Shown in pieces: positions 42,951 through 57,907 of a stretch of DNA of 64,000 bases; positions within the stretch are counted from its first letter, which is position 1, and the number at the start of each line of letters is the position of its first letter. Position numbers and translations under genes: made by a program. The stretch covers positions 62,001 to 126,000 of the forward strand of contig JAFOOX010000022.1 in NCBI GenBank assembly GCA_017425245.1, written 5' to 3'. The stretch is from Gammaproteobacteria bacterium. GTDB lineage: Bacteria; Pseudomonadota; Gammaproteobacteria; Enterobacterales; Neiellaceae. A model generated the notes under the pieces. That model did no database searches. It saw only the letters and a program-made list of their open reading frames with translations, and had not been told where the DNA came from.

Positions 42951-43191
42951 ATTGCGAGGTTACCCACCTCGCGCTGGGGCAGAGGGGCGTATCGCCACGC
43001 CCCTCTGCACACCCGGGCGTCCCCGCGATCACCACCACCAAGATCAGGCTGATGTTCTGCCGGCCTCCGGGGTCGCCACAAAGTCACCTCCCTGTGCCTT
43101 AGTGGCTCTCGGCAACGTCCTGTTGCCTCGACCCCTACACCCGGCTGGCCGTGGGTTGTTTAGCGCCGTGCGGGTGGTGATTGAGGGGTAA
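42946..43191 (-). ncRNA. Dispersed GGA-hairpin element, copy A1 (putative structured RNA)
   Basis: Element of about 245 nt; the minus strand is proposed as sense. Hairpins: H1 42954-42972 (GCGAGGT/ACCTCGC), H2 42979-43008 (12-bp perfect stem GCAGAGGGGCGT, hexaloop), H3 43075-43106 (outer GCCAC/GTGGC, inner CAC/GTG; sense loop AGGGAG) and H4 43111-43127 (GGCAAC/GTTGCC; sense loop AGGAC). H3 and H4 loops carry GGA closed by C-G, like CsrA sites. Transcription and function are not shown. Confidence 0.55.
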
Positions 43192-46089: not shown

Positions 46090-46336
46090 GGATGCGGGGT
46101 GCCGCCCCCGCGCGACGGGCAGGAGGAGGGTAGCCGGACCCTCCTCCTGCACCACCAGCCGGCCCGGTAGAGCAGCGCAGTTAATGCCTGTGACCTGTTC
46201 TGGTGCTGCTGTCAGGCCGCTCGACGGCACATCCCTGTGCCGGGCTCGCTCTCGGCAACGTCCTGTTGCCTCGACCTGCCAGCTGCACCAAGGCTGGTGT
46301 GGGCTGATGGGCGATCTGGGCGCTGCTCAAACGGGG
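46090..46336 (-). ncRNA. Dispersed GGA-hairpin element, copy B1 (putative structured RNA)
   Basis: Subfamily B; minus strand proposed as sense. H1 46094-46111 (GCGGGG/CCCCGC, hexaloop), H2 46119-46150 (13-bp perfect stem GCAGGAGGAGGGT, hexaloop), H3 46225-46242 (CGGCAC/GTGCCG, sense loop AGGGAT, giving CAGGGATGT) and H4 46254-46270 (GGCAAC/GTTGCC, sense loop AGGAC). Nearly identical to B2. It lies about 210 nt upstream of the REC-REC kinase on the same strand. A further tail fragment is at about 46385-46447. Confidence 0.55.
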
Positions 46337-48922: not shown

Positions 48923-49169
48923 GGATTGCGGGGTGCCGCCCCCGCGTGACGGGCAGGAGGAGGGTAGCCGGACCCTCCTCCTGCACCACCAGCCGGCCCG
49001 GTAGATCAGCGCAGTTAATGCCTGTGGCCTGTTCCGGTGCTGCTGTTGGGCCGCTCGACGGCACATCCCTGTGCCGGGCTCGCTCTCGCCGACATCCTGT
49101 CGCCTCGACCTGCCAGCTGCACCAAGGCTGGTGTGGGCTGATGGGCGATCTGGGCGCTGCTCAAACGGG
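48923..49169 (-). ncRNA. Dispersed GGA-hairpin element, copy B2 (putative structured RNA)
   Basis: Nearly identical to B1. H1 48928-48945, H2 48953-48984 (same 13-bp stem), H3 49059-49076 (sense loop AGGGAT), H4 49088-49104 (sense GGCGAC/GTCGGC, loop AGGAT). In H4 an A-T pair of B1 is a G-C pair here, and one pair is lost. Antisense to both flanking plus-strand genes. Confidence 0.55.
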
Positions 49170-49305: not shown

Positions 49306-49536
49306 ATGGCGACTTCGGTTCGTCTTGATGACAGCTTTGTGCAGGACGTTAAGGTTCACGCCGATGCGTTGAGCCGCAGCCTGCCCAAGCAGATTGAGCA
49401 CTGGGCCAAGATTGGCCAGATCGTGGAGGAAAACCCCGATCTGTCATACGCCTTCATCAAGGAGGTGTTGTTGGCCAAGAGTGAGGTTCAGCAAGGATTG
49501 GTAACCCGCTATGAGCGACGGACAAAACGCGATTGA
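49306..49536 (+). CDS. ParD-like type II antitoxin
   Basis: A 76-residue protein, MATSVRLDDSFVQDVKVHA onward, with a ribbon-helix-helix-like N-terminus and SRSLPKQIEHWAKIGQIVEE, matching the ParD-like antitoxin family. It would bind the operon promoter and neutralise the downstream toxin. ATG 49306 with GAGG eight or so bases upstream; the frame is open further upstream through element B2 but that is not coding. Its 3' end overlaps the toxin start by 26 nt. Confidence 0.85.
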   Translation: MATSVRLDDSFVQDVKVHADALSRSLPKQIEHWAKIGQIVEENPDLSYAFIKEVLLAKSEVQQGLVTRYERRTKRD

Positions 49537-49807
49537 GGTGTTTGAGAGCCGCCGCTTTGGCAAGGCCCTGAAAAAGCTACCGGATGCCGCGCTCAAGGTG
49601 GTGGAAGACGAGATCGACAAGCTGATCGCCGATCCGCTGTTGGGCGAACAGAAGAAGGGCGACCTGGCCTTCTTGCGGGTGCACAAGTTCCCGCTCAATC
49701 GCCAGCAGATGCTGCTGGCCTACAGCTGGCAGCAAGAGCGCCTGCACCTCTACCTGCTGTCGTTCGGGGCTCACGAGAACTTCTACGACGAGCTGATGCT
49801 CGGCTGA
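49511..49807 (+). CDS. RelE/ParE family toxin
   Basis: A 98-residue protein with the RelE/ParE fold signs: FGKALKKLPDAALKVVEDEI (N-terminal helices), LAFLRVHKFPLNRQQMLLAY and LHLYLLSFGAHENFYDEL (C-terminal strand with the family's HENFYD ending). Such toxins cleave ribosome-bound mRNA or poison gyrase; which applies is not clear. It overlaps the antitoxin gene, the usual antitoxin-first order. Confidence 0.87.
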   Translation: MSDGQNAIEVFESRRFGKALKKLPDAALKVVEDEIDKLIADPLLGEQKKGDLAFLRVHKFPLNRQQMLLAYSWQQERLHLYLLSFGAHENFYDELMLG

Positions 49808-50371: not shown

Positions 50372-50637
50372 CGGATTGCGAGGTTACCCACCTCGCGCTG
50401 GGGCAGAGGGGCGTAGCGCCACGCCCCTCTGCACACCCGGGCGCCCCCGAGATCACCACCATCAACATCTGTTGGTTGTTCTGCCGGGCTACGGGGTCGC
50501 CACAATGTGCCTTCCCTGGCCCATAGTGGCTTTCGTCGCCATCCAGGCGACTCAACCCCTCCGCCCAGCAGGCCGCTGGTTTGCCGGCGCCGTGCCAGTG
50601 GTGATCCAGGGGTAGGGGGCTACAGCGCTGCCGCTGG
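50372..50637 (-). ncRNA. Dispersed GGA-hairpin element, copy A2 (putative structured RNA)
   Basis: Minus strand proposed as sense. H1 50378-50396, H2 50403-50432 (12-bp perfect stem, hexaloop), H3 50499-50530 (outer GCCAC/GTGGC, inner GCC/GGC; sense loop AGGGAA), H4 50535-50551 (sense GTCGCC/GGCGAC; loop TGGAT). The H4 stem differs from A1 at several positions with compensation. The tail ends in TACAGCGCTGCCGCTGG, shared with A5 and B1. Confidence 0.55.
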
Positions 50638-50816: not shown

Positions 50817-52418
50817 ATGAGAAAAGAGAAGTTGTCTATTTACCTCGCGAGAGAGGGCAATAAACAAGATTCGGATGTTATAAAGCTAGAAAATGTCAAA
50901 GGACCTATCAAGCTATCTTTGCCAGAAGCGGAATCTGCCGCTCTCTACATAAAAAGGCAACCACCCAAGAGTGCGCCGCCATGGACTAGGTTATTCACGC
51001 TAAATAATCAGGTTGATGCTTCTGAATTTGGATTCTCCTCTAACGTTGGGGCTGTTTTTATAGTTAGAGTGTCCGGCGCGACTTTTATACTTTCGTTTGG
51101 TACAGGTTTTCATCTATTAAAACCAGAGTCTATTGAACGCGATTTCGGTTTAAAAGTGACATTGAATTCAGTTGATCCTGATAAGTTAAGGAGCCTTGAC
51201 AAGGCAAGTTATGACCATAATCCATTAAACTCTAGAACTCAAAGTACAAAAGATGTTGATATATTTAATCTCCATTTAGATTCCGAGATGGAAATGCTCT
51301 ATGCAGTGACGGGGGCATCTTTAGTTAAAGAATTCGGTAGCCATGTGACTGGGCGAGACGCTCTTACAATAGCAGTTGAAGCTAACCTGTCTGATATCCC
51401 GGGTATCTTGTTCGAATCGCTAAAACGGTATCGCTCTAACTTGCCGGCTAAGTTTAGTTGGGTTGAGAACATTAATAGGGTGCGAGACTTAGATGAGATT
51501 GAAATATTGGATTTGGAATTGAATGCTTGTTTGGCCAATAAGAAATTTGATAGCCTCTGGCTGGGCGAGCCAGAAATAGTAGATTGGGAAGGCCAAATTG
51601 GATACTCATTTGAAAAGAGCGCAAGAGCCTTTCGTTACACCGTATTGTCCTTTGATGACTACATAAAGCATCTAAATGGTGCAACTCCCACAATTGATTT
51701 AATGAAGGAAAATGTCATTCATGTAAATAACAGTGAGTATCAGCCCATTAAGAGCTGGTCAGTCTATCGTTGTTTGTATGCGGAAATCACATTTGGTCAG
51801 AGTTGTTATGTATTGAGGAATGGCATTTGGTACAAGATTAACTCTACTTTCGTTTCGGCAGTTAATGACTATCTTGCTGATGTTTGCATTCACTCATTTA
51901 AGTTCCCTGTATATTCTCATGATGATGAGGGTGAATATAATGAGCATGTGTCTATAACTCAAAGTGGATTCTGCTTGATGGACAAGAAAAACATTCATAT
52001 CGGCGGGCCATACGACAAATTGGAACATTGCGATTTGATTAAAGATGGAAAAGAGTTTGTTCATGTCAAACTATACCGAAGCTCTGGCACTTTAAGTCAT
52101 CTTTTCGCTCAAGGGTTTGTCGCTGCGGAGGCGTTTATAAAAGACAAGGATTATAGAGAGAAACTAAATCCAAAGCTGCCGGCACCAATAAGGCTTAGAG
52201 ATCCTAAACCTAGGCCAGATCCAAGCAAATACACGATCGTGTATGCAATAGCGACCACAAAAGATATACCAAGGGAGCTGCCATTTTTCTCAAAGATAAC
52301 TCTAAAGAACGCCTTAAAAACCCTGCGAGCTCTAAACTATAATGTAGCTCTTTCGAGAATAGAGATAGATGCGAAATGGCTAATGACCAAAAAATGTAAA
52401 CCAACGAAATGTAGTTAG
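50817..52418 (+). CDS. TIGR04141/DUF6119-like sporadically distributed protein
   Basis: A 533-residue protein, beginning MRKEKLSIYLAREGNKQD, that resembles the sporadically distributed TIGR04141 (DUF6119) family: an N-terminal beta-rich part with GAVFIVRVSGATFILSFGTG, and the C-terminal FVHVKLYRSSGTLSHLFAQG block. Function is unknown; its patchy spread and occurrence among accessory genes make a defence role plausible but unproven. The gene is clearly AT-richer than its neighbours, with different codon use (many TTA, ATA, AGA), which indicates recent transfer. No partner gene is adjacent. Confidence 0.65.
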   Translation: MRKEKLSIYLAREGNKQDSDVIKLENVKGPIKLSLPEAESAALYIKRQPPKSAPPWTRLFTLNNQVDASEFGFSSNVGAVFIVRVSGATFILSFGTGFHLLKPESIERDFGLKVTLNSVDPDKLRSLDKASYDHNPLNSRTQSTKDVDIFNLHLDSEMEMLYAVTGASLVKEFGSHVTGRDALTIAVEANLSDIPGILFESLKRYRSNLPAKFSWVENINRVRDLDEIEILDLELNACLANKKFDSLWLGEPEIVDWEGQIGYSFEKSARAFRYTVLSFDDYIKHLNGATPTIDLMKENVIHVNNSEYQPIKSWSVYRCLYAEITFGQSCYVLRNGIWYKINSTFVSAVNDYLADVCIHSFKFPVYSHDDEGEYNEHVSITQSGFCLMDKKNIHIGGPYDKLEHCDLIKDGKEFVHVKLYRSSGTLSHLFAQGFVAAEAFIKDKDYREKLNPKLPAPIRLRDPKPRPDPSKYTIVYAIATTKDIPRELPFFSKITLKNALKTLRALNYNVALSRIEIDAKWLMTKKCKPTKCS

Positions 52419-52667
52419 CGTGTACTTTAGAGCGCGGCACCAGCGGGCGTCTATTATCAGGGCTGCTGGGCCTGCTGAAGTTTAAGACAAATGAATGTTA
52501 ATGTCTTACGGAGCTGAGACCCTTGGTGGAGCAATTAAATTGCGAGGTTAAAAGGTGTGGGCCGTGTACGGATTTACGGGCGAGCTGTGGAGAGCACATA
52601 CGCGTTGCAAGATTCGAGTAGCGAATAAGACCAGAGCCTGCACGGGGCGACATTTCTTCCAACCCCT

Positions 52668-52945
52668 TGCCCACCACCCGCACCCACGCCAGCCAACCCA
52701 CGGCCAGCTGGTCGAAGGGATTGAGCTGGCAGGGATGCCAGCGAAAGCAAATCTGGGCAGGAGAGCCCATATTTGCGACCCCGTAGCCCGGCAGAACTTA
52801 CGCCAGTACGCGATGGTGGTGAGCTTGGGGGCCGCCGGGATTGGTAAGGGCCGGGCGGGACCGGCCCTTGCCCGGCCTGCGCCGGCCGGTCGGCGCTCTT
52901 ATCAAATCGCCACGCGATTTGTCTCAACGCCTGCGGCGCAAGCGC
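52668..52945 (+). ncRNA. Dispersed GGA-hairpin element, copy A3 (putative structured RNA)
   Basis: Plus strand proposed as sense. H4 52725-52742 (GCTGGC-AGGGAT-GCCAGC), H3 52747-52776 (GCAAAT/ATTTGC outer, TGGGC/GCCCA inner, loop AGGAGA), H2 52843-52872 (GGTAAGGGCCGG stem with one G-T pair, hexaloop) and H1 52879-52896 (GCGCCG/CGGCGC). This copy has the most diverged stems and yet all hairpins are kept, so it is the best evidence of covariation. It lies 250 nt downstream of the DUF6119-like gene on the same strand. Confidence 0.6.
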
Positions 52946-52962
52946 CGCTACGGACTTTCGTC

Positions 52963-53301
52963 TCAATTGGCGCGACCTTTCGTCAACGCACGCCGAGAAG
53001 TTAGAGTTACAGCGGCCAGCAGCAGGGCAAGGGCGATCAAAATTGTGGTGGCATGCCCTACCAGAAACTGATAGAGCGTGAAGCCGATAAAGCCGTTCTC
53101 ATCGCTAAGTAGCCGTATCCAGTACTGGGACGGTTCCGCATCCTGCAGGAGGTTGGACCAGGACGGCATGGCTTTGACCACCAGCAAGGTTGTTGGGTCG
53201 TCGCTGAACAACACAACCGCCGTCATGGTTTTCAGTGCCAGTAATACAATCCCGAAGCCAACAAGAACGAGCGAGATTATTCTAGGGAGCGGATAGCGCA
53301 T
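52963..53301 (-). CDS. Two-helix membrane protein, probable immunity protein
   Basis: A 112-residue protein with two membrane helices (IISLVLVGFGIVLLALKTMT and FLVGHATTILIALALLLAAV) around a polar loop of about 45 residues that would face the periplasm. Its start overlaps the end of the amidase gene by 20 nt. The pairing of a peptidoglycan amidase with a periplasm-exposed small membrane protein is that of effector and immunity (inference). A truncated second copy is at 54444-54592. Confidence 0.65.
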   Translation of the reverse strand: MRYPLPRIISLVLVGFGIVLLALKTMTAVVLFSDDPTTLLVVKAMPSWSNLLQDAEPSQYWIRLLSDENGFIGFTLYQFLVGHATTILIALALLLAAVTLTSRRALTKGRAN

Positions 53302-53839
53302 GTCTTTTCCTCAAAGTGCTTATCACGGGCAACAGCTCGCTTCCTGGGCAAGAGTAATCTTGCCCTTTGAGAACTTCCTTATGTCCACCGAGCTTGGATA
53401 TTGGAAAATACGTCTTAAGCAATTTTATGAGCCGCTCCAGCGCTTGAAGCTGCTGAGCTGACAGGTCATCGTCGATATCCCACCACTGATGGTCAAAGTC
53501 ACCCATCATCAAGATCCCGATCTTTCCCGTATTGCTCAGCTTGACGTGGCTGCCTTTGTATACAATTTCTCTGCCTTCATAAAGCTTGCCCGTTTTACCT
53601 ACAAGGTAATGGTAGCCAACGTCATCATACTTATTTATGGCCATGTGGTGACGTTCTACGTCAATGGGGTCGTCTTTGCCACTATTTCCTGAATGATGGA
53701 CGACAATGCTGTTGTAGGCCCAGTCTTCAACAAGTTTTTAATAATTGGGTGTCAACCGACCCCAGTTAAGGCGTCGCTCAATACTCAGTTGGGTAAGGAT
53801 GATGTTCTGAATGGCGCGTCGACCGACAATATTTGACAT
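53282..53839 (-). pseudogene. N-acetylmuramoyl-L-alanine amidase (PGRP/amidase_2), broken by a nonsense codon
   Basis: From ATG 53839, with AAGGAGG five bases upstream, the frame reads MSNIVGRRAIQNIILTQL...NWGRLTPNY, then TAA at 53738-53740, then continues in frame KLVEDWAYNSIVVHHSGNSG to 53282. The downstream part has the amidase_2 zinc ligands: His in VVHHSGN, His in KLGGHKEVL and Cys in YSCPGSELL, with GYHYLVGKTGKLYEG. A single CAA-to-TAA change would explain the stop. Restart at ATG 53644 would lose the first zinc His, so the gene is probably dead unless read through. No signal peptide; it resembles secreted antibacterial amidase effectors. Confidence 0.8.
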
Positions 53840-54145
53840 GTAACCTCCTTGTTTTCATGGCCCGCGTATCCGTGCGGACTTTGTCTTCGATACTCGCTCA
53901 ACTTACATGGCTAGAGCTGTAAGCGGACCAGCGATCAGCCGTTATGTGATGCGTTTCAAGAAATTTTCACCTCCAGCCGTCAGCTGCACCACCACTCCCA
54001 CCCTTGCTCACCACCCGCACCCACGCCAGCCAACCCACGGCCAGCTGGGTGACGGGCGAGCGGACCGAATGGCCGCGAGAGTCACTAAGGTGATCAACTA
54101 AGGACGTCAAATCGATGCGTGGCGAAAGCCCTGTATTCCCCACAC
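53840..54145. other. Intergenic region with a truncated element tail
   Basis: Upstream of the amidase gene. At about 53983-54050 is a fragment of the dispersed element (CACCCGCACCCACGCCAGCC and ACCCACGGCCAGCTGG), without H3 or H4. No coding sequence with a plausible start is visible. Confidence 0.5.
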
Positions 54146-54427
54146 CCTTGCCCACCACGCACACCCAAGCCAGCCAACCCACGGCCAGCCGGGTGTAGGG
54201 GTTGAGGCAACAGGACGTTGCCGAAAGCCACTATGGGCCATGGAGGGCACATTGTGGCGACCCCGTAGCCCGGCAGAACTTACGCCAGTAACAGATGGTG
54301 GTGAGCTTGGGGGCCGCCGGGATTGGTAAGGGCCGGGCGGGTCCGGCCCTTACCCGGCCAGCGCCGGCCGGTCGGCGCTCTTATCAAATCGCCACGCGAT
54401 TTGTCTCAACACCTGCGGCGCAAGCGC
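54146..54427 (+). ncRNA. Dispersed GGA-hairpin element, copy A4 (putative structured RNA)
   Basis: Plus strand proposed as sense. H4 54206-54222 (GGCAAC-AGGAC-GTTGCC), H3 54227-54258 (GCCAC/GTGGC outer, GCC/GGC inner, loop ATGGAG), H2 with the perfect 12-bp stem GGTAAGGGCCGG near 54325-54355, and H1 GCGCCG/CGGCGC near 54360. Part of a duplication with A3. Confidence 0.55.
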
Positions 54428-54443
54428 CGCTACGGACTTTCGT

Positions 54444-54592
54444 CTCAATTGGCCGGACCTTTTGCCAGCGCACGCCGAGAAGTTAGAGTGACAGCGGTCA
54501 GCAGTAGGGCCATGGCGATCAAAATTGTGGTGGCATGCCCTACCAGAAACTGATAAAGCGTGAAGCCGATAAAGCCGTTCTCATCGCTAAGT
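54444..54592 (-). pseudogene. Truncated copy of the 52963 immunity gene
   Basis: The minus strand encodes LSDENGFIGFTLYQFLVGHA and on to the stop, about 95% like the last 49 residues of the protein at 52963. Homology ends abruptly at GCTAAGT (54592, matching 53111), with unrelated sequence beyond. No start codon or RBS remains. Confidence 0.88.
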
Positions 54593-56528: not shown

Positions 56529-56815
56529 ACCAGCGGCAGCGCTGTATTTCCCACCCCTCGATCACCACCCGCACCACGTCAGCCAACCCACGGCCAGTCG
56601 GGTGTAGGGGTTGAGGCAACAGGACGTTGCCGAGAGCCGCTATGGGCCATGGATGGCGCATTGTGGCGACCCCGTAGCCCGGCAGAACAACCGACGGATA
56701 TTGATGGTGGTGATCGCGGGGACCGCCGGGATTGGTAAGGGCCGGGCGGGTCCGGCCCTTGCCCGGCCTGCGCCGGCCGGTCGGCGCTCTTATACAAATC
56801 GCCACGCGATTTGTC
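56529..56815 (+). ncRNA. Dispersed GGA-hairpin element, copy A5 (putative structured RNA)
   Basis: Plus strand proposed as sense. It begins CCAGCGGCAGCGCTGTA. H4 56615-56631 (GGCAAC-AGGAC-GTTGCC), H3 56636-56667 (GCCGC/GTGGC outer with a G-U pair in the sense strand, GCC/GGC inner, loop ATGGAT), H2 near 56732-56762 (GGTAAGGGCCGG, one G-U) and H1 GCGCCG/CGGCGC near 56768. Antisense to the flanking toxin and csiV genes. Confidence 0.55.
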
Positions 56816-56920: not shown

Positions 56921-57907
56921 TTATGGCGCAGCAGGCGCCGCCGCTGGTGCGGCCTCAACGCCATCGCGAACCTGCACAATCACCCCATACAGCGGGTGAT
57001 CGAGGTAGTAGGTTTCGCCTTTTTTCAGCGGGCGCAGCTGGGCCAGCGGGTAGGCGAACAGGAAGGGTTCGCTGCTGCTGGTGGGGGCGGTGTTGCTGGT
57101 TTCGTCGCCGACGGCCAGCACCTGAACATCACCTTCCACTTTCACTGCGCCGCTGCTCAGGCTGTCGTTACCGGAGGCAGTGGTGGTTGCCGTTTCGCCG
57201 TTGTCGCGCACCGGCACTGTGCCCGGCTGGCGCCACTGCAGGCTGGTTTCCACCACCAGCGCGCCGCTTCGATACAGGCTGAGGGTGCCATCCAGCTCCC
57301 AGCGCGGGGCCGGGCCGGTGATCAGGGGCTGGCCCAGTTCAGCGGCGGCTTCGGCCTGCAGATCGCCGACCAGATCGGTGGTCGGTTTGGCGGGCGGGGT
57401 AGGCGGCAGCTGGTAGCCATCGTCACCAAACTGCGGGCCATAGTTGCGGCCGCCGATCAGGCGCACCGGCAGGGCGGTGGTGCGGCTGGCGGCCAGCGCC
57501 TGCTGCCAGCCGGTATGCAGCAGCACCCGGTAGTTGCCCTGACTGGCCAGTTTGCTGCGGGCGTCAGCCAGTTTCAGCTGGTCGGCGGCAAGCAGGCGGA
57601 TGCCGTTGTCGGGCTGGGGCTCGACATTGGCACTGGTGATCACCGGCTCGATCTGATCCGGCAGCGGGCTCAGCTTGCAGGTGATGCCAGGGGTGTTGCA
57701 CGGCACCCAGGGGTAACGGCCGAGGGGCAGGCCGGCGCTGTCAAAGCGCTGGATCTGCTGACGGTCGGGCCAGGCTTCATCGACGCTGTCGGCGTTGATG
57801 GTGCGGGCAAAGACGATCACCTCCACCTCCAGCGGGGCGGCGCGACTGGTAGAGGCCCATAGCAGGGCGGCGGCCAGCAGCGGCAGGGCGATCAGATGAC
57901 GCATCAT
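56921..57907 (-). CDS. csiV: CsiV family protein (peptidoglycan-binding, exported)
   Basis: A 328-residue exported protein (signal MMRHLIALPLLAAALLWAST, cleavage near SRAA). The mature start LEVEVIVFART and the late segments GTLSLYRSGALVVETSLQWR and YYLDHPLYGVIVQVRDG are those of CsiV, an envelope protein of Vibrio and relatives linked to cell-wall integrity under D-amino-acid and osmotic stress. As in those genomes, it lies directly next to mfd; here its ATG overlaps the mfd stop. A Ser/Thr-rich linker near 245-280 and an Ala/Pro-rich tail are present. Confidence 0.8.
   Translation of the reverse strand: MMRHLIALPLLAAALLWASTSRAAPLEVEVIVFARTINADSVDEAWPDRQQIQRFDSAGLPLGRYPWVPCNTPGITCKLSPLPDQIEPVITSANVEPQPDNGIRLLAADQLKLADARSKLASQGNYRVLLHTGWQQALAASRTTALPVRLIGGRNYGPQFGDDGYQLPPTPPAKPTTDLVGDLQAEAAAELGQPLITGPAPRWELDGTLSLYRSGALVVETSLQWRQPGTVPVRDNGETATTTASGNDSLSSGAVKVEGDVQVLAVGDETSNTAPTSSSEPFLFAYPLAQLRPLKKGETYYLDHPLYGVIVQVRDGVEAAPAAAPAAP

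Follow-up and report, generated by a model that had tools for sequence, protein, structure and literature searches.

The window, that is, the whole stretch of 64,000 nucleotides that was analysed, carries several copies of a short repeat. The genes noted around them include one for a DUF6119/TIGR04141 protein, which adjoins the repeat cluster and belongs to a sporadically distributed group.

49511-49807: ParE-like toxin gene
50817-52418: DUF6119/TIGR04141 protein gene
53282-53644, minus: Amidase_2 domain protein gene
56921-57907, minus: CsiV gene

The copies of the repeat lie on both strands and are the following, with the evidence for each in brackets:

43020-43189, minus: sibling copy of the GGCAAC + CACTAAGGCAC type (family model, type tally)
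46163-46335, minus: sibling copy of subfamily C (family model 68 bits, type tally)
48997-49169, minus: sibling copy of subfamily C with a different outer stem, CCCGTTTGAGCAGCGCC.. (family model 51 bits, type tally)
50444-50613, minus: sibling copy of the GTCGCC type (family model, type tally)
52662-52831, plus: copy A3, a complete element of subfamily A of about 170 nt (R1 covariance model 188 bits; end-to-end alignment with 41 other copies)
53999-54105, plus: copy, truncated or decayed, that immediately precedes the next one (31.5 bits)
54143-54313, plus: sibling copy of the GGCAAC type (family model; Rfam TwoAYGGAY match at 54196-54266, 39.8 bits)
56553-56722, plus: sibling copy of the GGCAAC type (family model, type tally)

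The R1 covariance model was built from a MAFFT alignment of 42 copies. Within and directly behind copy A3, the following parts are recognised:

52663-52678, plus: 5' arm of the outer stem P1, resembling a terminal inverted repeat (partner 52815-52830; arms 81% complementary)
52707-52711, plus: 5' arm of the basal helix P2 (partner 52788-52792; alifold and pair counts)
52717-52720, plus: 5' arm of the junction helix P3 (partner 52779-52782; GGGGTTGAG..GCGACCCC scaffold kept in other copies)
52725-52742, plus: hairpin H4, CTGGC type, GGA in the loop (fold -12.0 kcal/mol, z -3.6; 4/6 pairs covary)
52747-52776, plus: hairpin H3, CAAATCTGGGC type, AGGAGA loop (fold -14.7 kcal/mol, z -3.7; 6/9 pairs covary)
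52779-52792, plus: 3' arms of P3 (52779-52782) and P2 (52788-52792) (alifold, pair counts)
52815-52830, plus: 3' arm of P1 (arm complementarity and covariation across subfamilies)
52832-52872, plus: downstream hairpin module of type M1, GGTAAGGGCCGG/CCGGCCCTTGCC (inverted repeat; module types tallied)

The initial annotation had placed two hairpins at 52725-52776; both the coordinates and the letters are confirmed, and the hairpins are stable. H4 reads GCTGGC-AGGGAT-GCCAGC and H3 reads GCAAAT-C-TGGGC-AGGAGA-GCCCA-T-ATTTGC, with 1/200 and 0/200 dinucleotide shuffles, respectively, folding as well as the real sequence. The spacer between them, given as GAAAGC, is a linker of GAAA, the trailing GC being part of H3. 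The ends of A3 form an imperfect inverted repeat, CCCCTTGCCCACCACC / GGTGGTGAGCTTGGGG, and the 5' arm of P3 reads GGGA, with an A.C mismatch at the inner end of the helix. As mismatches are present in P1, P2 and P3, with H4 and H3 intact, this individual copy may be decaying.

Copies and subfamilies

By BLAST, copy A3 matches 47 places in its own genome of 3.45 Mb, and with the covariance model the number of matches there is at least 117, a few of them fragments, with 150 of the 3310 first-look candidates scored. In a sister genome from this genus, the model has 34 matches, a few of them weak and antisense to a copy, and the positions of the 34 are identical to those in Corallincola sp. Go_UH_bin_55. 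R1 found no match in any of 38 further genomes from the family and order; thus, the amplification either took place recently or is limited to the genus.

Regarding the standing of A3 among the copies, it had been taken as the most diverged one, a single deviant in which the stems were replaced wholesale. Neither statement holds, since A3 scores 188 bits against 68 and 51 bits for the minus-strand copies at 46163-46335 and 48997-49169, and its stems are the allele of a major subfamily, common to dozens of copies. The proposed search for further copies of this type was productive: among 128 aligned copies from the own and the sister genome, H4 is of the CTGGC type in 40, GGCAAC in 39, GTCGCC in 26, a rarer type in 21 and unassigned in 2, and the A3-type H3 is present in 39 of the 40 CTGGC copies. 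Copy number, model score and type tally rule out that A3 is a singular, diverged version.

In subfamilies B and C, the inner scaffold is the same but the outer stems differ, and behind most copies stands a hairpin module of one of at least five stem types (M1-M5 in the tally). As the types of hairpin, outer stem and downstream module are found in many combinations, the family is a mosaic, and the block-like stem change in the window reflects recombining subfamilies. Consequently, with a stem type that is common and types that are recombined, inheritance and recombination of subfamilies explain the presence of A3 here; compensatory evolution took place among the subfamilies, not as an event in A3.

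Other repeated features accompany the copies. A direct duplication of 300 nt with 93% identity relates 52760-53059 to 54242-54541, spanning the 3' part of the element, the module behind it and the 3' end of the ORF at 52963-53301. At 52873-52990 and 54355-54470, as well as 3' of many copies, there are arrays of tiny hairpins, such as TGCGGCGCAGCCGCA, TGCCACGCAGTGGCA and GCCAACGCAGTTGGC, whose loops are CGCAG/CGTAG-like and whose stems change. Judged by eye only, a pattern of kept loops and changed stems also seems to hold for the CGCAG-loop hairpins, and the bare 5-mer CGCAG shows no excess in the window (266 versus 309 expected). In addition, units of the GAGATAC type stand in tandem near several copies, in the flanks of L014, L042, L171 and L170.

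Selection on the fold and the folded strand

Across the 128 copies, standard pairs fill 96.3% of the pair cells, compared to 76.7% with the 3' partners shuffled and 35-51% with the partners slid by 1-3 columns, and double-sided compensatory changes occupy 816 cells, compared to 236 in shuffles; this alignment was fitted to the structure and its copies are related, so that the figures lean in favour of pairing, by a large margin. In H4, four of the six pairs switch between several pair types, while in the outer stem 7/9 pairs of helix 2 covary across subfamilies, as seen by pair counts. Selection on structure is well supported by these figures from the whole family, and not by the single copy A3, from whose stems it had been argued. 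As for the loops, which had been described as retained, this is true of the GGA in each of them and of the closing C-G pair of H4, which is invariant, but not of the literal letters, as the H4 loop is AGGGAT or AGGAC and the H3 loop AGGAGA or CATGGAGG, depending on the copy type. GGA is present in both loops of all copies having sequence there (127/127).

The region is G+C-rich and holds many small hairpins, as would be expected if the pattern had arisen by chance or from the composition of a G+C-rich repeat, with stem differences that come from comparing unrelated repeats. Such an origin is hardly conceivable, as the covariation lies far above that of shuffled and slid partners, the same pattern persists for H4 and H3 in the structure-blind MAFFT alignment of 42 copies, GGA is invariant and a similarity to the Rfam family RF01731, described below, is independent of these tests.

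G.U wobbles outnumber A.C mismatches by 154 to 34, in cells that are not independent, and, since a G.U pair would turn into A.C on the opposite strand, the excess suggests that the GGA strand is the RNA that folds. A transcript of this strand would fold into a long basal stem leading to a three-way junction and two GGA-loop hairpins. On this reading, both the fold and the GGA loops are under selection, the letters of the stems drift by compensatory change, and recombination between subfamilies makes the stems appear swapped as blocks.

Relation to TwoAYGGAY and a proposed link to CsrA

No curated RNA family reaches its gathering score in the window; below-threshold matches to Parecho_CRE, Cis90_sRNA and Xist_exon4 are regarded as chance. 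The Rfam family TwoAYGGAY (RF01731, clan CL00106), with a curated gathering score of 43 bits, matches the window copy at 54196-54266 with 39.8 bits (E 2.6e-4), and its matches at 38 places in the own genome all stay just below this cut-off, the best with 42.8 bits and A3 not among them. A copy in the sister genome (L058:4538-4683) exceeds the cut-off with 47.3 bits, and R1 also finds this place, with 126 bits. Therefore, the element is called a relative of TwoAYGGAY, an affinity that these scores support, and not a filed member. Both have two GGA-loop hairpins in tandem that rise from one basal stem, and they share a scaffold of a G-rich strand, GAG, H4, GARAGC, H3, GCG and a C-rich strand, as well as a distribution over Gammaproteobacteria and Clostridia. 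The literal AYGGAY terminal loops are absent from A3, which has AGGGAU and AGGAGA, and AUGGAU occurs in H3 of sibling types. Compared to TwoAYGGAY, the window element scores below the cut-off, has more than 100 copies in one genome and comprises three outer-stem subfamilies and five downstream modules.

The original description of TwoAYGGAY, from 2010, presents it as a probable RNA and scores cis-regulation 'n' (PMC2864571), and Rfam labels the family Cis-reg. If the copies were host-domesticated cis-regulatory or 3'-end elements, each would act on the adjacent mRNA through its stability, termination or response to CsrA, as the Rfam label and the 10 of 22 own-genome copies lying between convergent ORFs (crude ORF calls) could indicate. 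However, this is distinctly unlikely, since a consistent orientation to neighbouring genes was not found with the crude ORF calls and orientation is mixed above all in Lachnospiraceae, no common neighbour gene was noticed, the copies are limited to one genus among the relatives searched and the original score is itself against it (PMC2864571).

Regarding a binding partner, TwoAYGGAY has been proposed to bind CsrA on the basis of a CsrA-site model and motif matches (PMC4333381). The SELEX consensus of CsrA is RUACARGGAUGU, and the CsrB repeat is CAGGA(U/A/C)G (PMC7652899). The H4 loops CAGGACG and, in A3, CAGGGAUG match both this repeat and the core of the consensus, CAGGGAUG corresponding to CARGGAUG; the hairpin loops offer GGA in a CsrA consensus context, and GGA itself is present in both loops of 127/127 copies. 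As a point against, the stems of H4 and H3, with at least 6 bp, are longer than those of most SELEX ligands of CsrA (PMC7652899). The own genome encodes csrA.

The co-occurrence of csrA was followed in 299 Lachnospiraceae genomes, of which 45 are positive for TwoAYGGAY, often with many copies, at up to nine candidates scored per genome. csrA is present in 44/45 positive genomes compared to 110/254 others (Fisher 1.7e-13), and the flagellin control gives 45/45 compared to 111/254, while Cas1 shows no association in this family (16/45 versus 98/254, by our own count from the listed genomes). As a specific proof, the co-occurrence is weakened, because flagellin associates equally and the two are fully confounded; thus, the csrA link is consistent with CsrA but inseparable from motility or shared ancestry.

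The sRNAs CsrB, CsrC, RsmX, RsmY and RsmZ are encoded by dedicated genes, one or a few in number, that each carry many sites. They resemble the element in having multiple hairpins, GGA in the loops and CAGGA(U/A/C)G, whereas the element is scattered through the genome as a repeat, each copy holding two core sites, and none of the CsrB/Rsm models of Rfam reaches its gathering level in the window. As to function, our leading proposal is binding of CsrA, and the most likely job of the element would be the presentation of paired CsrA sites. Together, the two hairpins would serve the CsrA dimer as a paired site, and transcripts of the element would bind or titrate CsrA, or CsrA would protect or silence the element RNA. 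This hypothesis is directly testable, as one genome offers more than 100 natural variants with GGA loops kept and stems swapped. Should CsrA bind, so large a number of sites could be of consequence for a global regulator; otherwise, something else in the life cycle of the element would have to recognise the loops.

Probable MITE-like spread

In Lachnospiraceae, 20 copies were read from three genomes, and nine of these, from two genomes, have recognisable shared ends. These nine elements are palindromic, of about 314 bp, and enclose the core between terminal inverted repeats (TIRs) of the GATTCGGGTGTCAAAAGG type. The direct-repeat identity of their flanks is 75% at length 7, compared to 44% at lengths 6 and 8, a signal reached by a fraction of 0.00015 of flank permutations (0.015% of trials), and 7-bp target duplications are exact in four elements, 6/7 in three and absent in two, with ends picked by reading the sequences and a duplication test that was not blind. 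Inverted TIR pairs of this type also lie so near to each other that the core would not fit between them, in apparent miniature derivatives such as those at G217 C3:125708-125792, C5:144229-144316 and C22:68826-68913, which suggests that the core is not needed for movement. Facing TIR pairs within about 500 bp, surveyed in two genomes, leave no room for a transposase gene, and a full-length transposon with these ends was thus discarded as a candidate.

In the window genus, the inverted outer stem is present and the 3' boundary is indistinct, and scanning of 5' offsets, 3' offsets and lengths 4-12 gave no signal of target duplications. The element is short, non-coding and of high copy number, with a core of about 170 nt, too small for a transposase, and at least 117 matches. 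From this copy number, the dispersal and the relatives, we infer that it has probably been mobile in this genus as well. A search for a plasmid or phage origin gave no match. Similar to bacterial MITEs and REP/BIME-type repeats, the element is short, non-coding, palindromic and dispersed, and the Lachnospiraceae relatives add TIRs and 7-bp target duplications to this likeness; it differs from them in carrying a conserved, covarying RNA core and, in the window genus, in having no detected target duplication.

A purely selfish repeat, whose fold and GGA are recognised as single-stranded DNA or RNA by a transposase or host machinery during mobilisation, with CsrA irrelevant, would account for the high copy number, for the palindromic ends and 7-bp duplications in Lachnospiraceae and for a flagellin association as strong as that of csrA. 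However, the excess of G.U over A.C favours RNA of one strand over DNA, the apparent TIR-only miniatures suggest a core that is dispensable for movement, and the GGA loops match known CsrA sites, which makes this explanation rather unlikely, if by no means negligible. The preferred reading, to which we give a probability of roughly 60%, is that A3 is a CTGGC-type copy of an amplified, structured RNA related to TwoAYGGAY, selected for its fold and GGA loops, probably a CsrA site and spread in a MITE-like manner, for which the target duplications of the Lachnospiraceae relatives give support and which would extend to the window genus.

More tentatively, and with more doubt than confidence, TwoAYGGAY could be the conserved cargo of MITE-like mobile elements that take a paired RNA target of CsrA across phyla, repeatedly seeding genomes with CsrA decoys or CsrA-controlled sites; the window genome, with more than 100 copies, would then be an extreme case. 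What is new is the amplification, the division into subfamilies whose stems are exchanged, and the carriage of the Lachnospiraceae relatives in MITE-like elements, and the literature searched held no link of TwoAYGGAY to mobility or of MITEs to CsrA. For TwoAYGGAY, an orphan motif since 2010, the transposon-like carriage with target duplications and the more than 100-fold amplification in one gammaproteobacterial genome provide a way of spreading.

Some copies form close inverted pairs at a distance of about 40-125 nt, all arranged head to head, minus then plus, and similar minus/plus pairs also occur in Lachnospiraceae. Those of the head-to-head type are the following:

G000:C58:28648-29029, minus then plus: head-to-head copy pair
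G000:C54:9245-9623, minus then plus: head-to-head copy pair
G001:C257:968-1347, minus then plus: head-to-head copy pair
G001:C174:4226-4687, minus then plus: head-to-head copy pair
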